A stretch of 36,204 bases of DNA from the NCBI GenBank assembly GCA_016286245.1, contig JAEESG010000006.1:1-36204 (forward strand), written 5' to 3'. Positions 19,486 to 34,821 of this stretch are shown piece by piece (position 1 is the first letter of the stretch; the number at the start of each line of letters is the position of its first letter). Source of the stretch: Clostridiales bacterium. GTDB lineage: Bacteria; Bacillota; Clostridia; Oscillospirales; CAG-382. A model generated the notes under the pieces. That model made no database searches. It worked only from the letters and a program-made list of their open reading frames with translations, and was not told the DNA's origin. Both the position numbers and the translations under genes were made by a program.

Positions 19486-20340
19486 ATGATTTTCGAAAAA
19501 ATTGACTTAAAACTTGATTATTCAAAAATTGACGCGCCCGATACGGGATACGTTGCAAAAATGGACCTGTACGTCCCCAACGAATCGAGAGAGGCTTCGG
19601 CTTATACTCCCAAAAGACCTACCGTAATCGTGCTTCCCGGCGGCGGCTACGGCTGGACGTCGAGAAGAGAGGCGGATCCGATCGCGCTTAACTTCGTTGC
19701 AAAGGGAATGAACGCGTGCGTTATAAATTACAGCGTCGTTCCGTCGACTTTCCCGTCGGCGCTTCTTGAAGTGCTGTCCGCGATAAAATATTTGCGCGAA
19801 AACGCCGAAAAATATTTCGTAAACAGGGATAAAATATTCGTGTGCGGCTTTTCCGCAGGCGGACATCTCGCAGCAAACGTGGGAACACACTGGAATAAGA
19901 AGGAAGCGGTCAAATATTTCGGAAACGTTGAGGATTTAAGGCCCGACGGGCTTGTTCTCGGCTATCCCGTAATAACGAACGACGACAACAAGAGCCATCT
20001 CGGCTCATTCGACGCGCTTCTCGGCGATAAAAAGGGCGACAAAGAGATGCTCGAATATCTGTGCCTTGACAAACAGGTGTCGGAGGACACGCCGAGCGCG
20101 TTTATATGGAGTACTTACGAGGACGACGGCGTGCCGTGCGAAAACTCGATAAGATTTGCGCTTGCGCTCAGAAAGCAGAGAATTCCGTTTGAACTTCACA
20201 TATACGAAAAAGGCGAACACGGAGCCGCAACGGGCGACAGAGTAACGAATTTCAGACCGCAGAGGCTTAAAAACTGGATGGATGAGGCGGCAGCATGGAT
20301 TTACGACGAAAGGTCGCGCAAAAAGGGTACGGGGGCGTAA
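19486..20340 (+). CDS. alpha/beta hydrolase (xylan esterase/lipase-like)
   Basis: RPTVIVLPGGGYGWTSRREADPIALNF...KIFVCGFSAGGHLAANVGTHW...YEKGEHGAATGDR. Start placed at ATG 19486 after AGGGAG. Confidence 0.88.
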   Translation: MIFEKIDLKLDYSKIDAPDTGYVAKMDLYVPNESREASAYTPKRPTVIVLPGGGYGWTSRREADPIALNFVAKGMNACVINYSVVPSTFPSALLEVLSAIKYLRENAEKYFVNRDKIFVCGFSAGGHLAANVGTHWNKKEAVKYFGNVEDLRPDGLVLGYPVITNDDNKSHLGSFDALLGDKKGDKEMLEYLCLDKQVSEDTPSAFIWSTYEDDGVPCENSIRFALALRKQRIPFELHIYEKGEHGAATGDRVTNFRPQRLKNWMDEAAAWIYDERSRKKGTGA

Positions 20341-20680
20341 AGGTTTCGACGGGGATTTTGAGATATTGTAAGCGAGCAGAGGTGCGGGAGCTCTTAAAAA
20401 CGCCGCAATTTTAAAAATAAACGCTAATAGAAATTTAGTTAAAGCTGCCTAATTTCGGCGGCCGTCGTACCCGTGAGTACTGCGGCGCGGGATACGGCGT
20501 GACACAGCAGTGAACGTGAACGGTCTTAAGCTTTGCGGACCGTCATGAACCAATGAAGCTACTTCTTGCATTTTCCCGACTGCCGGAGCTTGCATGAAGG
20601 AATTTAAAGGCAGTCTGCGCTCGGAGAAAACGGTAAGGATGAATTTTCGGACAGGAGTTCGATTCTCCTCGCCTCCACCA
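20331..20680 (+). ncRNA. ssrA: transfer-messenger RNA (tmRNA)
   Basis: 5' GGGGGCGTAAAGGTTTCGACGGGG; 3' GGACAGGAGTTCGATTCTCCTCGCCTCCACCA. GGGGGCG pairs with CGCCTCC in the acceptor stem. Tag ORF GCTAATAGAAATTTAGTTAAAGCTGCCTAA at 20423-20452. Confidence 0.96.
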
Positions 20681-21989: not shown

Positions 21990-23288
21990 ATGAATCCTTT
22001 TGAAAAAATCATAGGCTATGAATCGGTACGCAAAGAGCTTGAGAAAACGGCGGATGCGCTGAAAAACCCGCAGATATACGCGAAACTCGGGACCTGTGCT
22101 CCGAGAGGACTACTTCTTTACGGCAAGCCGGGCGTTGGAAAGACGCTCATGGCCTCCTGCCTTATTCAAGCAAGCGGCAGGAAGGTTTTTGCCTGTCGGA
22201 AGGACAAGCCGGATCGGAATTTTGCAAGTTATATACGCGAGGTGTTCAAGCAGGCGGAGTATGAGGCCCCTTCAATTGTTTTTCTGGATGACCTTGACAA
22301 ATTTTCAAATGACGATGAAGAACGCAAAAATACCGAGGAATATGTAACCGTACAGACGTGCATTGACATCGTGAAAACGTCGGACGTTTTTGTTATTGCA
22401 ACCGCAAACGATATTGACCTTCTTCCCGTTTCCCTGCTTCGCACGGGAAGATTTGACCGTGTCATTCATATAGACGTTCCCGACAAGAAAGACGCTGTGG
22501 ATATTATACGGCACTATCTTAGGAACAAACCGTGCGAAGCCGACATGGATTACGAAAACCTCGGAGGTATTATGGCGCTCCACAGCTGCTCCGATCTCGA
22601 AACGGCGGTCAACAAAGCGGGGCTGCTTGCCGGATATGAACGCTGCGATAAAATTTCCTTGCGCCATCTGATTCTCGGCTGTATATATATTTCCTGCGAA
22701 ATAGCGCCCGAAAGTATTATCAGCGGAGCGGACGGCAAAGAAGTCGAATACGCGGCATACCATGAAGCGGGACACGTTGTTGTGTCTGAAATCCTCTTTC
22801 CGGGCAGCGTATCGGCAAGCTGCGTTTTTAAAGAGGATGACGGCTACGTGTCGGGTATTACCAAGTATAACTTTGAAAAAATGCTTTCCGTGGACGGCGT
22901 GTTCGGCAAAATAACGCGTACAATGGCCGGATGCGCCGCCGTAAAATACAAATTCGGCTCCGTGGATTTAGGCTCTTCAAGAGATATCAATGATGCAAGA
23001 TGGGAGATGTCAATGCTTATTGAGCATAGTTCGGCTTTCGGGGAGTTTCCCCGGCAGAATAACTGTGAGTATTCGCAGAATATTCTTTCGGGCATGGAGC
23101 AGATTGCCGCCGTTAAAATTGAGGAATGCTCAAAACGGGCGGAGAAAATAATATTTGAAAACAGGGAATTGTTTGAGGCCGTCGCAAAAGAACTTTTGAG
23201 CAAAGGTCTGCTCATTGCCGAGGATATAAGAAGAATAAAACGGACTGTGCTCGAACATGAGACATTTTTGTCGCACAGAGCGGTGTAA
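21990..23288 (+). CDS. soluble FtsH-like AAA ATPase with M41-type peptidase domain
   Basis: Walker A LLLYGKPGVGKTLMA; Walker B-like IVFLDDLDKF; SRH-like RTGRFDRVIHIDVPDKKDAVDII; M41 motif YAAYHEAGHVVVSEI and later SSRDINDA. No N-terminal TM helix. Confidence 0.85.
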   Translation: MNPFEKIIGYESVRKELEKTADALKNPQIYAKLGTCAPRGLLLYGKPGVGKTLMASCLIQASGRKVFACRKDKPDRNFASYIREVFKQAEYEAPSIVFLDDLDKFSNDDEERKNTEEYVTVQTCIDIVKTSDVFVIATANDIDLLPVSLLRTGRFDRVIHIDVPDKKDAVDIIRHYLRNKPCEADMDYENLGGIMALHSCSDLETAVNKAGLLAGYERCDKISLRHLILGCIYISCEIAPESIISGADGKEVEYAAYHEAGHVVVSEILFPGSVSASCVFKEDDGYVSGITKYNFEKMLSVDGVFGKITRTMAGCAAVKYKFGSVDLGSSRDINDARWEMSMLIEHSSAFGEFPRQNNCEYSQNILSGMEQIAAVKIEECSKRAEKIIFENRELFEAVAKELLSKGLLIAEDIRRIKRTVLEHETFLSHRAV

Positions 23289-25437: not shown

Positions 25438-26022
25438 TCAGGAATACGCTCGTAAAATCTCTTGTGCTACCTCCGTTTTTGAAACGCAGCGGTCCATCGC
25501 CTGCTTTTCTATGTAGCGGTGAGCCTGCGGCTCGTCCATTTTGAGTTCCGAAATGAGGAGCCATTTTGCGCGGTTGACTATGCTTATTTCCTTCATTTTT
25601 TCCTCCACGGTGAGCGTCTTTTTCTCGAGTTTTCTCAGCCGTTCCTTTGCGCTTGACATCCAGTCGAGAGCGAGCGACAAAAGAGGGGATGACGTCGGTT
25701 TTGAAAGCGTGAACACGCCGTGAGGAGACACTTTTTCACGTATATCGTTATGAAATTCCGCGCGCACGAGCAGCAAAACCACCGTGCTTTTGGAGTTTAC
25801 CGCGTCTATTGCGAATCTCGTTCCCACGTCGTCGGGCAGCGGCGAGTTTATAATCACGAAATCGTAGCTCCGTTCGCTCCACGCCTGCTTCCCGGCGTTT
25901 ACTCCCGACACGAATTTTACGGGCTGAAAGTGCGATTCGGGCATAAGGGAGGAAAGAGCGGTATTCAGTTTTTCCGCCGCGGACACGACGAGAACGCTAT
26001 AAATTCGCTCTTCCAGACTCAT
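25438..26022 (-). CDS. ANTAR-domain RNA-binding antiterminator with degenerate receiver domain
   Basis: C-terminal EKMKEISIVNRAKWLLISELKMDEPQAHRYIEKQAMDRCVSKTEVAQEILRAYS matches ANTAR. N-terminal receiver-like YDFVIINSPLPDDVGTRFA...TLSKPTS. Confidence 0.88.
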   Translation of the reverse strand: MSLEERIYSVLVVSAAEKLNTALSSLMPESHFQPVKFVSGVNAGKQAWSERSYDFVIINSPLPDDVGTRFAIDAVNSKSTVVLLLVRAEFHNDIREKVSPHGVFTLSKPTSSPLLSLALDWMSSAKERLRKLEKKTLTVEEKMKEISIVNRAKWLLISELKMDEPQAHRYIEKQAMDRCVSKTEVAQEILRAYS

Positions 26023-26054: not shown

Positions 26055-27266
26055 TTATGCTCCACAGTAAATTTTCAAGATTTCAGAAGGTATATGCGTT
26101 TTGATAAAATCGCTTGAGGACGCAATTTCACAGGCTTCCCTGAAGTTTTCGGGAAGCTTTTCGAATTTTGAGAGAATATCCGCGCCCGCGCTGTAAAGAT
26201 TTACGTCGGCAGGCTCGCACAAGGCAAGTTTATTCGTAATTCCGTAAAGGCCCGCGTAAATCATGAGTGTAAACGCAAGATACGGATTTGACGTCGGGTC
26301 GGGAGACCTGAATTCCGCGCGTCTGTATTCGTTTGCCGCCGCGGGAATGCGTACAAGCTGCGAGCGGTTTTGCGCCGACCAGGAAACGTAAAGCGGAGCT
26401 TTGTTGTTTCCGAGCCGTTTGTATGAATTTTCGCAGGGATTCATAAACGCCGTCATATTTCTTGCATTTTGGAGAATGCCGGCTATCATGTGATTAAAAT
26501 TCTTTCCGTCTCCGAAAGGGAGAATCGACATATTTATATGAAAGCCGTTTCCGGGGGCGTTTTCGAGCGGTTTCGGAGAAAAATCCGCCGTCATGCCGTT
26601 TCTGTGCGCAACCGTTCTGACAACGCGCTGAAAAGTCATTGCGTTGTCGGCGGCACTCAGCGCGTCGGCGTACCTGAAATCGATTTCATTCTGAACGGGG
26701 CCTGCTTCGTGATGCGAGCTTTCGGGGCGTATGCCCATCTGCTCGAGCGTAAGGCAGATTTCACGCCTTACGTTTTCTCCGCGGTCATCGGGCGCTATAT
26801 CCATATATCCCGCCTCGTCGCAGGGGATTTTCGTCGGTTTTCCGTTTTCGTCGAGCAAAAAGAGGTAAAATTCCTGTTCTGAACCGAACGTAAACGTAAT
26901 TCCCGCGTCCTTTGCGTCTTTTACCGCCTTTTTGAGCAGGTTTCGCGTATCGCATACAAACGGAGTTCCGTCGGGATGCGAGATGCTTGAAAACATCTGT
27001 ACTACGCGGCCGTGCTCGGGGCGCCACGGAAGCGGCATAAGCGTATCGGGCTCGGGGTGCAGGAAAAGGTCGCTGTGGGTTTCGTCTCCGAAACCCGGTA
27101 TTGAGGACGCGTCGAACGCGATGCCGTGCTCAAAGGCACGGGGCAGTTCCTCCGGCATTATGGAAATATTCTTTTGTTTTCCGAAAACGTCGCAAAATGC
27201 CAGACGGATGAACTTTACGTCCTCTTCCGTCGCATATTGAATAATATCGTCCTTTGAATACTTCAT
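26055..27266 (-). CDS. glnA: glutamine synthetase, type I family
   Basis: IRLAFCDVFGKQKNISIMPEELPRAFEHGIAFDASSIPGF...GSEQEFYLFLLDENGKP...HHEAGPVQNEIDFRYADAL...NGFHINMS...RRAEFRSPDPTSNPYLAFTLMIYAGLYGI. Confidence 0.95.
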   Translation of the reverse strand: MKYSKDDIIQYATEEDVKFIRLAFCDVFGKQKNISIMPEELPRAFEHGIAFDASSIPGFGDETHSDLFLHPEPDTLMPLPWRPEHGRVVQMFSSISHPDGTPFVCDTRNLLKKAVKDAKDAGITFTFGSEQEFYLFLLDENGKPTKIPCDEAGYMDIAPDDRGENVRREICLTLEQMGIRPESSHHEAGPVQNEIDFRYADALSAADNAMTFQRVVRTVAHRNGMTADFSPKPLENAPGNGFHINMSILPFGDGKNFNHMIAGILQNARNMTAFMNPCENSYKRLGNNKAPLYVSWSAQNRSQLVRIPAAANEYRRAEFRSPDPTSNPYLAFTLMIYAGLYGITNKLALCEPADVNLYSAGADILSKFEKLPENFREACEIASSSDFIKTHIPSEILKIYCGA

Positions 27267-27282: not shown

Positions 27283-28002
27283 TCAATTTGCCACGTACAT
27301 CTGTCTGTAAGGGTTTTTGCTGTCGGGCGTTACGACCGTAAACGGCGACGAAAGAAGCTCGCCTTTGTCAAGCCCGAAAATACGGCAGTATTCCGAAAGA
27401 TAGGAAGAAAGCTCCTTCATATCCTCTTTTGAAGCGGTTTTCGCCGTTACCTGCTTTGGGAAAGCGATATTTTCGCACGTCGAGCGAAGAAACATTTTTC
27501 CACCGTGCATTCCCGTGCAGGGGAAAAATCCGACGCATTTTTCTTTGGGAGTATGCAGATTGAGCACGATTATTATGCCGCCCGCCTGGTATTCGCCGAG
27601 AAAGCTGCCGGCTTTGCCTCCGATAATCATTACGGGAACTTTTTCCTTGTACGCTTTCATATGAATGCCCGCGCGGTAGCCCGCGTTGCCTCCTACGTAT
27701 ATTTTTCCGCCCCGCATTGCGTATCCTGCGGCGTCGCCTATGTTTCCGCGCACGACTATCGTGCCCTCGTTCATGGTGTCGCCCACCGCGTCCTGCGCAT
27801 TTCCGAGAACGGTCAGTTTTCCGCCGTTTAAGTATGCGCCGAGCGCGTTTCCGGGCGTACCTCCGAGCGTTACGTTCTTTTGCGACATGCCGGCGGCGAT
27901 AAACCGCTGTCCGCAGCAGTTTTCGACGGTGCAGTTTGCGCCCGCGTTCCTCAGCGCGTCGTTCAAAGTTTTGTGATCAAGCCCTTTTGCATTTATCAAC
28001 AT
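27283..28002 (-). CDS. glutamate synthase alpha-subunit domain 3 (GXGXG) stand-alone protein
   Basis: GGTPGNALGAYLNGGKLTVLGNAQDAVGDTMNEGTIVVRGNIGDAAGYAMRGGKIYVGGNAGYRAGIHMKAY. Confidence 0.92.
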   Translation of the reverse strand: MLINAKGLDHKTLNDALRNAGANCTVENCCGQRFIAAGMSQKNVTLGGTPGNALGAYLNGGKLTVLGNAQDAVGDTMNEGTIVVRGNIGDAAGYAMRGGKIYVGGNAGYRAGIHMKAYKEKVPVMIIGGKAGSFLGEYQAGGIIIVLNLHTPKEKCVGFFPCTGMHGGKMFLRSTCENIAFPKQVTAKTASKEDMKELSSYLSEYCRIFGLDKGELLSSPFTVVTPDSKNPYRQMYVAN

Positions 28003-28007
28003 ATCTA

Positions 28008-29240
28008 TTATACCACACTTCCGAATTTTTTTCTACGTATTTTTTCCGAAAAAGCGGCGGTTGTCGCCGTTTTTTTCAAAATGTCGAAATTAAGCGACGA
28101 CAAAGGCGTCTTTTCGCGTATCAAGGACGTGTAAATTCCCGCGCGTTCGCCGCATCCGACAAGAATAAAGCCCTTTAAGTGATTGTCCTTGGTAAACAGC
28201 TTTTTTATCGAGTTTTCGGTTCTTTCCTCGTAAATTTCTCCCTCGTAAGCGCCTGCCGACATAATATGAAGTCCGAAAAATCCTATGGAATTCATCGGGA
28301 TTCCCTTGTCGAACAAGGCTTTTCCGCCCGCCATGTTGACTCCCGCCGTAAAGCCCTGCATATAGGCGTTCGGCAGAATCGCAAGCACGCGGTTTTGGTT
28401 TGTCGAAAGGTCAAAGCCCTGCGCGCAGTCCCCGGCGGCGAAAATGTTTGCTTTTGAGGTCTTCATTGCAGTATCCACGATAATTCCGCGGTCAATTTTT
28501 CCGCCCGCGTCCTTTAAAAGAGCGACGTTTGCGCGCACGCCGACGGCAAGAACGAGAACGTCGAACTCCACGACGGCTCCGCTTTTCATGAAAGCCTTGT
28601 TTTTTTCAAATCGGGCGGCGCTGTCGCCGAGATAAAACTTTATTCCGTTATTTTCGAGGTGTTTTTGCACCATGCCCGCGCAGTCCGCGTCGAGAATGCT
28701 CGAAAGAACGCGGTCGGCAAGGTCGCACACCGTAACGCTTGCAACGCGGTCCCTTATTCCCTCGGCGCATTTTAAGCCTATCAGTCCTGCGCCGACGATG
28801 AGCACCCTGCTTTTTTTGTTTAGCGCCTTTTCAAGGGCAAGCGCGTCGTCGAGCGTCATAAACGAAAACTTGTTTTTGACCGAATCTATGCCCTCGAACG
28901 GCGGCACGAAGGGAGAGGAGCCTGTCGCAAGGCAAAGCGCCGAGTACGCAAGCGCGCTTCCGTCGTCAAGCGTGATTTCTTTTGATTTTTCAAGGATTTT
29001 TACCGCTTTTTGTCCGTAAATTACGCGGCAGCCCGCTTTTTCGTAGAAATCTCCGTCTCTGTACGACATGCGGGACAGATCCGTTTTTCCTTCGAGATAA
29101 TAGGATATAAGCGGTCTGCAGTAAACTTCGTGTTTTTCCTCGGAAACGACGGTAATTTTTCCTTTTTTGTCAACGCTTCTTATGCCTTCGATACAGCCTG
29201 CGGCGGCAACGCCGTTTCCGACGATTACGTATTGTTTCAT
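28008..29240 (-). CDS. NAD(P)/FAD-dependent oxidoreductase
   Basis: YVIVGNGVAAAGCIEGIRSVDKKGKITVVSEE...LCLATGSSPFVPPFEG...VLIVGAGLIGLKCAEGI...ANIFAAGDCAQGFD. Confidence 0.92.
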   Translation of the reverse strand: MKQYVIVGNGVAAAGCIEGIRSVDKKGKITVVSEEKHEVYCRPLISYYLEGKTDLSRMSYRDGDFYEKAGCRVIYGQKAVKILEKSKEITLDDGSALAYSALCLATGSSPFVPPFEGIDSVKNKFSFMTLDDALALEKALNKKSRVLIVGAGLIGLKCAEGIRDRVASVTVCDLADRVLSSILDADCAGMVQKHLENNGIKFYLGDSAARFEKNKAFMKSGAVVEFDVLVLAVGVRANVALLKDAGGKIDRGIIVDTAMKTSKANIFAAGDCAQGFDLSTNQNRVLAILPNAYMQGFTAGVNMAGGKALFDKGIPMNSIGFFGLHIMSAGAYEGEIYEERTENSIKKLFTKDNHLKGFILVGCGERAGIYTSLIREKTPLSSLNFDILKKTATTAAFSEKIRRKKFGSVV

Positions 29241-29677
29241 GCCTTTTCACCCCGCTCCTCGTAAACTATTGCTTTGTTCGGGCAGCCTTTCACGCAGGCG
29301 GGCTGCCCTACGGAATTCTGCAGACAAAGCTCGCATTTCTGCATAACCCCGTTTTCGTTCGGTGCAAGCGCGCCGTACGGGCACACGAGAACGCAGGTTA
29401 AACATCCGACGCATTTGTTTTTATCGATTTTTATAACGTCCCCGTCCTTTGAAAGCGCGCCCGCGATACAGCTTTTTACGCATATCGGGTCCTCGCAGTG
29501 CCTGCATGACACGGCGTAGGAGATTTTCTCATTTCCCTCGACGTGAATTCGCGGGTATATGGGCTTGCCTTTGAGCGCAAGCGGCATATCCGAAAGTCCC
29601 GAGTTTGCAAAGGCGCAGTTGTATTCGCACAGATGACAGCCGAGGCACCATTTTTCATTTACATATACACGTTTCAT
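29237..29677 (-). CDS. 4Fe-4S ferredoxin-type electron-transfer protein
   Basis: CLGCHLCEYNC; CRHCEDPICVKSC; CVGCLTCVLVCPYGAL; CELCLQNSVGQPACVKGCP. Confidence 0.92.
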   Translation of the reverse strand: MKRVYVNEKWCLGCHLCEYNCAFANSGLSDMPLALKGKPIYPRIHVEGNEKISYAVSCRHCEDPICVKSCIAGALSKDGDVIKIDKNKCVGCLTCVLVCPYGALAPNENGVMQKCELCLQNSVGQPACVKGCPNKAIVYEERGEKA

Positions 29678-29680
29678 AAT

Positions 29681-31186
29681 TTATTCTCCCGCATGAGATA
29701 TACCGAGTATCTCAAGTTCTTTGTCGGTAAGACCTACTCCGCGAAGCATGAGTCTGTTTCCGCGAAGAGCCTCTATGGAATTTATGCCCATACCGCCCAT
29801 AAGCTCCATGATTTCATGCTTCCAGGCGGTCATAAGGTTTACGAGCCGCTCGCTTCCTATGTCGGGGTTGAGCCTCTTTACAAGGTCGGGGCGCTGGGTT
29901 GCGATACCCCAGTTGCACCTGCCCGTCTGACAGGTGCGGCAGAGATGACATCCGAGCGCAAGCAGCGCGGCGGTTGCGATATAACACGCGTCGGCGCCGA
30001 GCGCGACCGCTTTTACCACGTCGGAAGCGCTCCTTACGGAGCCGCCCGCGATAAGGGAAACGTTGTTTCTTATTCCCTCGTCGCGAAGCCGTTTGTCAAC
30101 CGAGGCAAGCGCAAGTTCAATCGGAATACCCACGTTGTCCCTTATACGCGTGGGCGCGGCGCCCGTTCCGCCGCGGAAACCGTCTATTGCGATTATGTCG
30201 GCGCCGCTGCGGGCAATTCCGCTTGCGATCGCCGCGATATTATGGACGGCGGCAACTTTTACGATTACTGGTTTTTTGTATTCCGTCGCTTCTTTGAGCG
30301 AATATACGAGCTGCCTTAAATCCTCAATGGAGTAGATGTCGTGATGGGGCGCGGGAGAAATGGCGTCCGAGCCTTCGGGAATCATGCGCGTGCGCGAAAC
30401 GTCGCCCACAATTTTTGCGCCCGGCAGGTGTCCGCCTATACCGGGCTTTGCGCCCTGTCCCATTTTTATCTCAATGGCGGCGCCCGCTTCAAGGTAGTCC
30501 TCGTGCACGCCGAATCGACCGCTTGCCACCTGAACGACAGTATTCGCGCCGTAACGGTAGAAATCCTCGTGAAGTCCGCCCTCTCCGGTGTTGTATAAAA
30601 TACCGAGCTTTTCCGCCGCCCTTGCAAGGGATGCGTGCGCGTTGTAGCTTATCGAGCCGTAGCTCATTGCAGAGAACATAACCGGCATTGAGAGGTTGAT
30701 TTGCGGCGGAAGCTCGCAGATAATCCTTCCGTTTTTGTCTTTTTTTATTTTTTCGGGCTTTTTGCCGAGAGAAACGCGCGTTTCCATAGGCTCGCGAAGC
30801 GGGTCTATCGGGGGATTCGTAACCTGGGACGCGTTTATTAAAATTTTGTCCCAGTAAACGGGAAGCGGTTTGGGGTTTCCCATGGAGGAGAGCAGAACGC
30901 CGCCGCTCGACGCCTGCTTGTATATCTCTTTTATCGTGTCGTTCTGCCAGTTTGCGTTTTCACGCAGAGTACAGTCGCTTTTTACGATTTTGAGCGCCCT
31001 CGTCGGGCAGAGGGATACGCATCTCTGGCAGTTGACGCATTTTGTCTCGTCGCTCATCATCATACCGCGCGCTTCGCTGTATGAGTGAACCTCGTTTGCG
31101 CACTGTCTTTCGCATACGCGGCAGGCAATGCAGCGCGACTCGTTTCTGATTACTTCAAATTCGGGAAAAATGAAATCCACGCTCAT
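29681..31186 (-). CDS. glutamate synthase domain 2 (FMN-binding) with N-terminal 4Fe-4S domain
   Basis: CIACRVCERQCANEVH...CVNCQRCVSLCPTRAL; then MSYGSISYNAHASLARAAEKLGILYNTGEGG...IKMGQGAKPGIGGHLPGAKI...IDGFRGGTGAAPTRIRDNVGIPIELAL. Confidence 0.95.
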   Translation of the reverse strand: MSVDFIFPEFEVIRNESRCIACRVCERQCANEVHSYSEARGMMMSDETKCVNCQRCVSLCPTRALKIVKSDCTLRENANWQNDTIKEIYKQASSGGVLLSSMGNPKPLPVYWDKILINASQVTNPPIDPLREPMETRVSLGKKPEKIKKDKNGRIICELPPQINLSMPVMFSAMSYGSISYNAHASLARAAEKLGILYNTGEGGLHEDFYRYGANTVVQVASGRFGVHEDYLEAGAAIEIKMGQGAKPGIGGHLPGAKIVGDVSRTRMIPEGSDAISPAPHHDIYSIEDLRQLVYSLKEATEYKKPVIVKVAAVHNIAAIASGIARSGADIIAIDGFRGGTGAAPTRIRDNVGIPIELALASVDKRLRDEGIRNNVSLIAGGSVRSASDVVKAVALGADACYIATAALLALGCHLCRTCQTGRCNWGIATQRPDLVKRLNPDIGSERLVNLMTAWKHEIMELMGGMGINSIEALRGNRLMLRGVGLTDKELEILGISHAGE

Positions 31187-32280
31187 TAATAAGCACCTTC
31201 CTTCACTTTAACGATAACGGGCTCTCCGCCCGCGGGCGCGTACACGTTTTCGGCGTCCGGCTCCATCGTTCTTATGGAAGCCTCCTCGCTTGCGATGAAT
31301 ACGCGGTCTTTTTTCTCGCCGACCACCATGGAGCGAAGCTTGAGTCTGTCGTTGAGAGCCATAATTCCGCCCGTAAAGCCGAGAATAATCGAAAACGGGC
31401 CCGTTATGAGAAGACTGGGAAACACGGTGCGCAGATACGCGAGTTTTTCCCTTTTGTATTTGTCGCGTTCCTTTTCGATAGTGCTCCAGAACGGAGACGC
31501 GATGACGTTTGCGGCTTCGGTGAGCGTCAGTCCCTGAACGCGCGTAAGATAGTCCATTATATAGGTTATGACCTCGGTGTCGGTCTTTAGCGTGCATTTG
31601 TATCCGAACATTTCTATAAATCTGCGGTTTGCGTCATATGAGGATATTTCCCCGTTATGTACTACCGAATAATCGAGGAGAGTGAACGGGTGCGCGCCGC
31701 CCCACCAGCCGGGGGTGTTTGTCGGATAACGGCCGTGCGCCGTCCAGGAATAGCCCTCATACTCTTCAAGTCTGTAAAACACGCCCACGTCCTCGGGAAA
31801 GCCGACGGCCTTGAAGGTACCCATGTTTTTTCCGCTTGAAAAGACGTACGCGCCCTTCATTTCCGTGTTGATTTTCATTACCGCGCGCGCGACGAACTCC
31901 TTTTCGTCGAGCTGCAGATTTTTGAGCATGGATTGAAGCGGAGATACGAAATAGCGCCAGATAATCGGCTCGTCGGTAATCTGCGGAATCTTTCTCGTCG
32001 GGATTATTTCAGATTTTACTATCTCGAAATGCTCTTTTATGAACGCTTCGCAGTCCTTTCTCGTCGCCCTGCTGTCAAAAAAGAGGTGCAGCGCGTAAAA
32101 ATCCTTATATTCGGGATAAATGCCGTAACCCGCAAATCCGCCGCCTAAGCCGTTCGAACGGTCGTGCATCGGTTTCATCGCGTCGATTACGAGCTTTCCC
32201 GACATTTTGTTTCCTTCCTTGGATATTACGGAGGCTATTGCACATCCTGAAGGGATATGAACTTGATTTTCTTTCATCAT
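31186..32280 (-). CDS. class II glutamine amidotransferase (glutamate synthase domain 1)
   Basis: SGCAIASVISKEGNKMSGKLVIDAMKPMHDRSNGLGGGFAGYG...GRYPTNTPGWWGGAHPFTLLDYSVVHNGEISSYDANRRFIEMFGYKCTLKTDTEVITYI. Likely start ATG at 32277/32280, not the listed 32391. Confidence 0.92.
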   Translation of the reverse strand: MMKENQVHIPSGCAIASVISKEGNKMSGKLVIDAMKPMHDRSNGLGGGFAGYGIYPEYKDFYALHLFFDSRATRKDCEAFIKEHFEIVKSEIIPTRKIPQITDEPIIWRYFVSPLQSMLKNLQLDEKEFVARAVMKINTEMKGAYVFSSGKNMGTFKAVGFPEDVGVFYRLEEYEGYSWTAHGRYPTNTPGWWGGAHPFTLLDYSVVHNGEISSYDANRRFIEMFGYKCTLKTDTEVITYIMDYLTRVQGLTLTEAANVIASPFWSTIEKERDKYKREKLAYLRTVFPSLLITGPFSIILGFTGGIMALNDRLKLRSMVVGEKKDRVFIASEEASIRTMEPDAENVYAPAGGEPVIVKVKEGAY

Positions 32281-32300: not shown

Positions 32301-32361
32301 AAAATAAAAAAAGAAAGGCGTTTATTACCGCGCAGAAATCTGTACGGTAATGAACGCCTTT
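32301..32361 (-). terminator. leader terminator of the GOGAT operon, overlapping the ANTAR hairpin
   Basis: Minus strand: AAAGGCGTTcATTACCG...CGGTAATaAACGCCTTT followed by CTTTTTTTATTTT. The 5' arm reuses the loop and 3' arm of the AAAGGC hairpin. Confidence 0.85.
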
Positions 32362-32370
32362 GCTCATTAC
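32347..32370 (-). promoter_or_regulatory. ANTAR-target-like hairpin, GOGAT operon leader
   Basis: Minus strand: GTAATGAGC[AAAGGC]GTTCATTAC, 9 bp stem with one G.U pair and a hexaloop with A1 and G4. Confidence 0.75.
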
Positions 32371-32376
32371 GGCACT

Positions 32377-32405
32377 ATTATAAACCGACAAACGTGATTT
32401 GTCAA
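32377..32405 (-). promoter_or_regulatory. sigma-A-type promoter of the GOGAT/glnA/ANTAR operon
   Basis: Minus strand: TTGACA - 17 nt - TATAAT. Confidence 0.88.
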
Positions 32406-32469: not shown

Positions 32470-32498
32470 TTGACATCGGCAGAAAAGAGTAGTATAAT
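32470..32498 (+). promoter_or_regulatory. sigma-A-type promoter of glnN
   Basis: TTGACA - 17 nt - TATAAT. Confidence 0.88.
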
Positions 32499-32507
32499 TT
32501 ACGGCGT

Positions 32508-32525
32508 AAAGGCAAAGGCGTCTTT
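32508..32525 (+). promoter_or_regulatory. ANTAR-target-like hairpin 1, glnN leader
   Basis: AAAGGC[AAAGGC]GTCTTT, 6 bp stem with one G.U pair, hexaloop A1/G4. Confidence 0.7.
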
Positions 32526-32555
32526 GAGTGGCAGGCTCGAAGGCGCTCTTTTTTT
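32517..32555 (+). terminator. leader terminator 1 of glnN, overlapping ANTAR hairpin 1
   Basis: GGCGTCTTTGAG[tggcagg]CTCGAAGGCGCT, 12 pairs including G.U, followed by CTTTTTTT. Confidence 0.85.
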
Positions 32556-32638: not shown

Positions 32639-32658
32639 AAAAGGCAAAGGCGTCTTTT
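32639..32658 (+). promoter_or_regulatory. ANTAR-target-like hairpin 2, glnN leader
   Basis: AAAAGGC[AAAGGC]GTCTTTT, 7 bp stem, same hexaloop. Confidence 0.7.
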
Positions 32659-32701
32659 GTGTTCTCACGAAAGGAGTCTTTGCCTTTACTGTTTTATTTT
32701 T
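32640..32701 (+). terminator. long terminator-like hairpin 2 of the glnN leader, overlapping ANTAR hairpin 2
   Basis: AAAGGCAAAGGCGTCTTTTGTG[ttct]CACGAAAGGAGTCTTTGCCTTT: 22 positions with one G/A mismatch. Followed after 4 nt by TTTTATTTTT. Confidence 0.65.
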
Positions 32702-32724: not shown

Positions 32725-34821
32725 ATGAGTACGGTATCTGATTATTTTGGAAGCAGCGTTTTTGACGACCGCGTTATGAGGGCGAGCCTCTCGTCCGACG
32801 TGTACGCGTCATTGAGAAAGACCATCGACGAGGGAAGCGAGCTTGACATAAGCGTCGCAAACGCCGTTGCGGACGCCATGAAAAACTGGGCGGTTGAAAA
32901 GGGAGCAACGCATTTTACTCACTGGTTCCAGCCGCTTACGGGCATTACCGCCGAAAAACACGACAGTTTTATCTCACCGTCGCCCGACGGCAGCGTGATT
33001 ATGGAATTTTCAGGCAAGGAACTGATAAAGGGCGAGCCTGACGCGTCGTCGTTCCCGTCGGGAGGCCTTCGCGCCACGTTTGAAGCGAGAGGCTACACCG
33101 CATGGGACCCGACGTCTTACGCGTTTATCAAAGGAAAGACGCTCTGCATTCCGACCGCGTTCTGCTCTTACGGCGGACACGCACTTGACAAGAAAACCCC
33201 GCTTCTTCGCTCGATGGAAGCGTTAAACAGGCAGGCGCTGCGTATTTTGAAGCTGTTCGGAAACACCACGACCAAACGCGTCGTTTCGTCCGTCGGTCCC
33301 GAGCAGGAATATTTCCTTGTTACAAAGGAAATGTACGACAAACGCCCCGACCTGCGTTTTACCGGACGCACGCTGTTCGGCGCAAAGCCGCCCAAAGGAC
33401 AGGAGCTTGACGACCACTATTTCGGCGTTATCAAGCCCGGCGTTGCGGCGTTCATGGAGGACTTAAACGACGAGCTCTGGAAGCTCGGAATTCTCGCAAA
33501 GACCGAACACAACGAAGTGGCTCCCGCTCAGCACGAGCTTGCGCCCATATATTCAACAACGAACATCGCAACCGACCACAACCAGCTGACGATGGAAATC
33601 ATGCAGAAGGTTGCGGCAAAGCACGGACTTGTATGCCTGCTTCACGAAAAACCCTTTGCGGGCGTGAACGGCTCAGGCAAGCACAACAACTGGTCGATTG
33701 CGACGGACAAAGGACAAAACCTCCTTTCGCCCGGCGAAACGCCGTATGAAAACGCGCAGTTCCTTTTGTTCCTTTGCGCCGTAATAAAGGCGGTTGACGA
33801 CTATCAGGACCTTCTTCGTATTTCGGTTGCGACCGCAGGCAATGACCACAGACTCGGAGCAAACGAAGCGCCTCCCGCGGTTATTTCGATTTTCCTCGGC
33901 GACGAGCTTAACGCCGTCCTTAAAGCAATCGAAACGGATACGCCTTATCAGGGAACCAAAAAAACGCAGATGAAGCTCGGCGTAGACGTACTGCCGAAAT
34001 TCAACCGCGATACGACGGACAGAAACAGAACGTCTCCGTTCGCGTTCACCGGCAACAAGTTCGAGTTCCGTATGCTCGGCTCGTCAAACTCCATAGCATG
34101 CGCAAACATCATGCTCAACAGCGCTGTTGCCGAGAGTCTGCGTATATATGCCGACAGACTTGAAAAAGCAAAGGATTTCGAAAAGGCGCTTCACGATATG
34201 ATAAAAAAGACGATAAAAGACCATAAGCGTATAATCTTCAACGGCAACGGATACGACGAGGCGTGGATAAAGGAAGCAACGCAGAAACGCGGACTGTTAA
34301 ACTATCGTACCACTGCCGACTGCATGCCGCACCTGCTTGACAGTAAAAACGTGAAGATGCTCACGTCTCTCGGAGTATTCACGCAAGACGAACTGCACTC
34401 GAGACGCGACATTATGCTCGAAAATTACTGCAAGAGCGTGGTAATCGAGGCAAACACGATGGTTGACATGGCAAGAACGCAGATAGTACCCGCAATAGAA
34501 CGCTACGCAGCAGACGTGGCAAAAGCGGCTTCCGCAAAGAGAGCGGTATCTCCGTATCTCAAGTGCGCGTATGAGACAGGGCTTGTCGAAAAGCTTTCGG
34601 GGCTGATTGACGAAATAGCGCAGAAGACGGATAAGCTTGAAAAGGCTTTGCTTGAAATTCAGAGCGCAAAAGATATTGTGGAAGAATCGGCACTGATAAG
34701 AGACACGATTCTGCCCGCCATGAGCGAAACGCGCGTACCGTGCGACGAAGCGGAAACGCTCACGGCAAAGAGCTATTGGCCGTTCCCGACCTACGCGGAT
34801 CTGCTGTTCGGCGTAAAATAA
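32725..34821 (+). CDS. glnN: glutamine synthetase type III
   Basis: 698 aa; [32 protein letters not shown]...[24 protein letters not shown]...[10 protein letters not shown]...[42 protein letters not shown]...[18 protein letters not shown] signatures. Confidence 0.97.

Follow-up and report, generated by a model that had tools for sequence, protein, structure and literature searches.

The question raised by this locus is whether a single hairpin, standing at the very start of a transcript, may serve as the target of an ANTAR antiterminator protein. Characterised ANTAR antitermination targets carry two hexaloops separated by a linker of 5–12 nt, and deletion of the upstream one, P1, abolished EutV induction in Enterococcus (PMC3369931). 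Published models differ in emphasis, as that work requires two hexaloops, whereas the EutV-RNA structure redefined the minimal target and binding unit as one hexaloop and noted that single-hexaloop motifs call for more work (PMC8934654). For the window (the whole 36,204-nt stretch of Clostridiales DNA analysed here), an earlier note had proposed an ANTAR-type switch at the start of the glutamate synthase operon. Judging from sequence, we put at roughly 0.85 the probability that the transcripts of this locus each begin with one hexaloop hairpin, which a NitR-like ANTAR protein would hold against an overlapping terminator.

The glutamate synthase operon lies on the minus strand and begins with a sigma-A consensus promoter (32377..32405), in which the −35 TTGACA (32405–32400) and the −10 TATAAT (32382–32377) are separated by a 17-bp spacer. 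Its first gene encodes the class-II glutamine amidotransferase subunit of glutamate synthase (31186..32280; PF00310, 4.5e-11), and is followed by genes for the FMN/catalytic subunit with a ferredoxin domain (29681..31186; PF01645, 2.7e-139), a 4Fe-4S protein (29237..29677; PF13247), an NAD(P)H-dependent FAD oxidoreductase (28008..29240; PF07992, 1.6e-54) and the GXGXG subunit (27283..28002; PF01493, 3.8e-26). The last two genes are glnA, which encodes a type I glutamine synthetase (26055..27266; PF00120, 1.2e-89), and, immediately 3′ of it, the gene of an ANTAR protein (25438..26022). A program-made ORF starting from TTG 32391 is an artefact, and the true start of the amidotransferase gene is ATG 32280 or 32277.

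Six nucleotides 3′ of the −10 TATAAT we identified a single hairpin of the ANTAR hexaloop type, GTAATGAGC[AAAGGC]GTTCATTAC (32347..32370, minus strand; loop at 32361–32356; fold −9.2 kcal/mol), which is the candidate antiterminator. Its 5′ arm begins at about +1, where the position of the promoter would place the transcription start. Both the promoter and this hairpin, as described in the earlier note, were confirmed in the sequence and in folds. The loop and the 3′ arm of the hairpin also make up the 5′ arm of an intrinsic terminator, AAAGGCGTTCATTACCG...CGGTAATAAACGCCTTT followed by the U-tract CTTTTTTT (32306..32361, minus strand; fold −26.4 kcal/mol). As these bases are shared, the two structures are mutually exclusive, and upon folding of the full leader the terminator form beats the hairpin form.

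Searches were run with a promoter-plus-hairpin model (R1) and a hairpin-only model (R2), for which the site in the glutamate synthase (gltB) leader scored E=2e-5 and E=5.6e-5, respectively, having itself belonged to both training sets. The R1 search of the genome returned only three places, all within the window, namely the gltB hairpin and two hairpins before a glutamine synthetase type III (GSIII) gene, and the same sites were the sole strong R2 matches in the window. A weak R2 match, TGAGCAAAGGTCTGCTCA (23195–23217, plus strand; E=0.13), lies within an AAA ATPase gene and is probably due to chance. No Rfam family, ANTAR or other, matched the site at gathering or at loose thresholds; the only family found elsewhere in the window was tmRNA (gene at 20331–20680, plus strand; RF00023, 161.9 bits).

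The earlier account of the region was correct for the gltB switch and missed the GSIII promoter with its two tandem switches. The GSIII gene (glnN; 32725..34821, plus strand; PF12437, 1.2e-80) is divergent from the operon and is a candidate target. Its consensus promoter, TTGACA-17-TATAAT (32470..32498, plus strand), is followed at about +1 by a first hexaloop hairpin, TAAAGGC[AAAGGC]GTCTTTG (32507..32526, plus strand; R1 E=7.3e-6, R2 E=1.5e-4), which is overlapped by the terminator GCGTCTTTGAG...CTCGAAGGCGC with its U-tract (32514..32555, plus strand; fold −21.4 kcal/mol). A second hairpin, AAAAGGC[AAAGGC]GTCTTTT, stands in tandem with the first (32639..32658, plus strand; R2 E=2.7e-4) and is overlapped by a terminator with a U-rich tail (32640..32700, plus strand; fold −29.7 kcal/mol). 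The predicted start sites of gltB and glnN are about 140 bp apart in the window. Among named relatives, we scanned leaders in which GSIII is divergent and close to gltB, and at least four stem pairs were required; at least one site was present in 42/42 of them and two or more in 32/42.

In order to follow the hairpin in relatives, glutamate synthase orthologues were taken from related genomes and from 80 named genomes, which cover rumen and gut Clostridia, Ruminococcus albus, [Ruminococcus] torques ATCC 27756, Massiliimalia and Merdimmobilis. The named genomes gave 79 leaders, chosen by gene start and not by motif. The promoter matches the consensus at 12/12 or 11/12 positions in most of them, and C-AANGNN-G was found near it in 73. 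Throughout the 70 aligned leaders A1, A2, G4 and the C:G closing pair are constant, partly by the definition of the search, with A, T, G or C at position 3 and G or A at position 5; thus the earlier suggestion that AAAGGC fits the A1/G4 rule of ANTAR hexaloops is borne out. The loop starts 13–16 nt past the −10 in 65 of the 71 leaders with a good promoter (L189 was counted from reading by eye), and the U-tract follows the loop start at a median of 56 nt. A terminator overlapping the hairpin was present in 70/71 leaders, which agrees with the claim of the earlier note that the two structures cannot coexist. Stem pairs 1–6 are formed in 99–100% of the gltB leaders, pair 7 in 83%, pair 8 in 51% and pair 9 in 27%. 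As pairing fades at the expected +1, the 5′ arm of the hairpin most likely coincides with the 5′ end of the RNA.

As a chance control we searched 391 class-level genomes for TTGACA-N16-18-TATAAT-N12-15-CAANGGCG, which was found at 66 places in 50 genomes, while the same pattern reversed was found at none. The pattern leaves the other stem pairs free, and the 30 sites with flanking sequence were used for pair counts. Across these unselected sites pair 3 was paired in 100%, pair 4 in 97% (41% when shuffled) and pair 5 in 67%, and pair 6 was not kept; hence the core is a stem of 4–5 bp below a fixed hexaloop. The alignment of relatives had an invariant AANG loop and a core of 5–6 bp. Pair 4 occurred as C-G, G-C, A-U and U-A, and the stem covaries between different leaders, in a set unselected for those pairs. 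An earlier alignment-based covariation count agrees with this and is biased, its sequences having been picked for at least four pairs. The covariation by which the earlier note proposed to check the AAAGGC hairpin is therefore seen between different leaders, but among gltB orthologues the stem is conserved and does not covary, being so nearly invariant that a shuffle test is uninformative.

The ANTAR protein of the window (25438..26022, minus strand) is the presumed ligand of the hairpin. The assignment made in the earlier note holds (PF03861, 57.1 bits against a cut-off of 27.3), and as the genome encodes no other ANTAR protein, it is also the sole ANTAR candidate for the ligand. The protein is NitR-like with a degenerate (pseudo) receiver, for which Pfam PF00072 remained below cut-off. 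In 77 relatives the phospho-acceptor Asp is changed to Asn in 72 and the acidic-pocket position is Ser in 74, thus phosphorylation is unlikely. In EutV, K149, E160, Y164 and M172 hold G4 and plug the hexaloop (PMC8934654). The residues equivalent to K149, E160 and M172, namely K153, E164 and M176, are nearly or fully invariant in the 77 relatives, and H168, at the position of EutV Tyr164, is His in 77/77, and AmiR also has His where it aligns with this position; the other EutV contacts, R142 and R168, are not kept. The predicted structure (pLDDT 90.4) gave its best TM-score, 0.76, with RNA-bound EutV (6ww6), and AmiR (1qo0) was a close match. In every named locus that reaches the ANTAR gene, glnA lies directly 5′ of it, and in L212 the glnA-ANTAR pair is split from the GOGAT genes, yet still together.

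Further +1 sites were detected in relatives before GSIII, an ammonium transporter gene (amt), asnB, purF, purB and large-subunit gltB, with the genes named by reading translated gene starts. In three genomes where glnA leads the cluster (L248–L250), this gene is likewise preceded by the single hairpin. In the glnA-led cluster of L249 a second hairpin, TGAC[AACGAA]GTCA, with an overlapping terminator, lies at 1625 (plus strand), 5′ of the glnA-leader hairpin. The R1 matches L095, L101 and L106, which are inside coding sequence, and L105 and L107, which are without a terminator, look false.

The motif accompanies ANTAR proteins. Among relatives it was present in 20/30 genomes with such a protein and in 4/30 without, and in 293 class-level genomes an R1 motif was found in 60/156 with PF03861 versus 9/137 without (p=3e-11, which is only indicative, the genomes being related by descent); after removal of the genomes that gave training sequences, the counts were 57/151 and 9/137. 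An R1 match at E≤0.02 was missing in 96/156 of the ANTAR-bearing class genomes, thus many ANTAR proteins of the class must use other targets or sites that the model missed.

The same counts bear on the possibility that the hairpin is recognised not by the ANTAR protein but by a different RNA-binding regulator or by glutamine synthetase itself. This could explain why a few genomes have the motif with no ANTAR protein detected, with convincing sites in two relatives (G031 and G041) and strong R1 matches, known from the R1 score alone, in G095, G239 and G302 of the class sample. The 240 contigs of G031 yielded no ANTAR protein; its locus (L103) has both divergent hairpin sites, and the GXGXG gene closes the operon, with neither glnA nor an ANTAR gene behind it. 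L100 (G052) and L102 (G041), likewise from genomes with no ANTAR protein detected, have motif-like sites upstream of asnA-GSIII and of purB-purA, and a clear U-tract is missing from the asnA-GSIII site. Where sites occur without an ANTAR protein, contigs may be missing, the system may have decayed, or the ligand may be a different one. We consider a different regulator unlikely by a wide margin, given that the A1/G4 loop with its C:G closing pair is the ANTAR signature, that co-occurrence with PF03861 is strong and the ANTAR gene is the last of the regulated operon, and that no Rfam family reached threshold at the site.

A canonical two-hairpin target may have been overlooked if the start site lies further upstream or P1 has degenerated. 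The spacing of the characterised targets would favour this, as would six of the 71 leaders, all R. albus-like (L190, L191, L192, L196, L203 and L215, of which L190 and L196 are Ruminococcus albus 8 and AR67), that carry 7–16 extra nt between the −10 and the hairpin. However, a second hexaloop is absent from these longer leaders too, and in most leaders the 12/12 consensus promoter takes up the stretch in which P1 would be expected. One of 73 leaders had a P1-like hexaloop with a linker of 3–14 nt, fewer than the mean of 3.05 in shuffled sequence, and the fading of the stem at the expected +1 leaves the hairpin at the RNA end. The canonical second hairpin, which was not evident to the earlier note, is thus truly absent, and we regard a hidden P1 as highly improbable.

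We give very little credence to a plain terminator placed after a promoter, in which the hairpin is a by-product of the terminator sequence with no regulatory role. The terminator is indeed far more stable (median folds in the gltB leaders −29.3 versus −5.9 kcal/mol), but it does not need the 5′ arm of the hairpin, whose pairs 1–6 are nevertheless kept in the gltB leaders and covary elsewhere; the loop varies at position 3 but not at positions 1, 2 and 4, and a +1 terminator of a nitrogen-assimilation operon needs a mechanism of release. Equally hard to credit is an ANTAR dimer that bridges two nascent RNAs, such as those of divergent gltB and glnN, since, although each ANTAR domain of the EutV dimer in the crystal holds a hexaloop from a separate RNA molecule and the divergent pair is common in the named loci, the authors of that structure judged binding in trans unlikely (PMC8934654), the amt, purF and asnB sites stand alone, and loci with GSIII elsewhere (L162 and L168) keep the gltB hairpin.

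We therefore return to one hairpin per switch, and compare it with known systems. The characterised ANTAR-target RNAs (the Enterococcus faecalis eutP/G/S/A leaders, nasF and amiE; PMC3369931) share with it the A1/G4 hexaloop, the C:G closing pair, the terminator overlap and the association with nitrogen-metabolism genes, and the eut consensus AGCAANGRRGCUY (PMC3369931) nearly matches the present AGC-AANGGC-GYU. Unlike them, the present leaders have one hairpin, located at the start site, with no upstream P1, and GSIII can be preceded by two attenuators in a row. As they resemble ANTAR antiterminators yet lack one defining feature of the described targets, the second hairpin, these leaders look like a new variant of ANTAR antitermination, one that uses a single hairpin.

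As for the protein, it probably belongs to the known NitR type. NitR of Clostridium saccharobutylicum NCP262 is, as summarised in PMC6316151 (citing Stutz 2007), an ANTAR protein linked to GS/GOGAT genes, which it induces by antitermination under nitrogen limitation. Clustering of the ANTAR gene with glnA and glutamate synthase, a NitR-type feature, is present here. The window differs in that the ANTAR gene is the last of a split-subunit GOGAT operon with GSIII divergent, and a single-hexaloop target is not described in that summary. The degenerate receiver is shared with AmiR/NasT-type proteins, which are controlled by a partner (AmiC, NasS) and not by phosphorylation; unlike these, the operon has no AmiC or NasS homologue, and the constant neighbour is glutamine synthetase. 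The phospho-acceptor Asp and the acidic pocket of a EutV-like two-component response regulator are not kept here. A possible logic is that of Bacillus GlnR/TnrA, which are controlled by feedback-inhibited glutamine synthetase (PMC9249791), in that glutamine synthetase would be a glutamine sensor that captures a regulator encoded beside it. GlnR/TnrA bind DNA, whereas the protein here is a predicted RNA-binding antiterminator, and its contact with glutamine synthetase is hypothetical.

We infer the binding, the direction of control, the signal and the sensor as follows. The transcript would begin with one hexaloop hairpin recognised by the ANTAR protein, and this would form first. By default the downstream strand would capture the loop and the 3′ arm to form the terminator, and transcription would stop about 55 nt later. 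Free, active ANTAR protein (25438–26022) would bind A1 and G4 of the hexaloop, hold the hairpin shut and block the terminator, so that read-through would lead to expression of glutamate synthase, GlnA, GSIII and the ANTAR protein itself. With the ANTAR gene last in the operon, read-through would yield more ANTAR protein, a positive feedback suggested by gene order. The trigger is likely to be nitrogen limitation, by analogy with NitR. Since the receiver has lost its phospho-acceptor, the signal would most likely be a protein contact; with plentiful nitrogen, glutamine-bound, feedback-inhibited GlnA, the product of the adjacent gene, could sequester the ANTAR protein. Glutamine synthetase is proposed as the sensor by hypothesis, from gene adjacency alone and with a logic borrowed from GlnR/TnrA.

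Taken as a whole, the picture of a clostridial nitrogen regulon with single-hexaloop antiterminators that begin at the first nucleotide of the RNA, a dispensable P1 and a pseudo-receiver ANTAR protein signalled by the adjacent glutamine synthetase is one we hold tentatively, at a little less than even odds. If it is true, this regulon would do without P1, the recruiting hairpin that antitermination has been held to require. The gltB and GSIII leaders look like natural single-hexaloop targets, widespread and strictly conserved, and some of their carriers, such as Ruminococcus albus and [Ruminococcus] torques, are culturable. Searches for dual hairpins, as well as Rfam, would miss one-hairpin targets of this kind. 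For gut and rumen Clostridia, the switches would offer a concrete mechanism by which nitrogen controls GS, GOGAT, GSIII, ammonium transport and steps that use glutamine.
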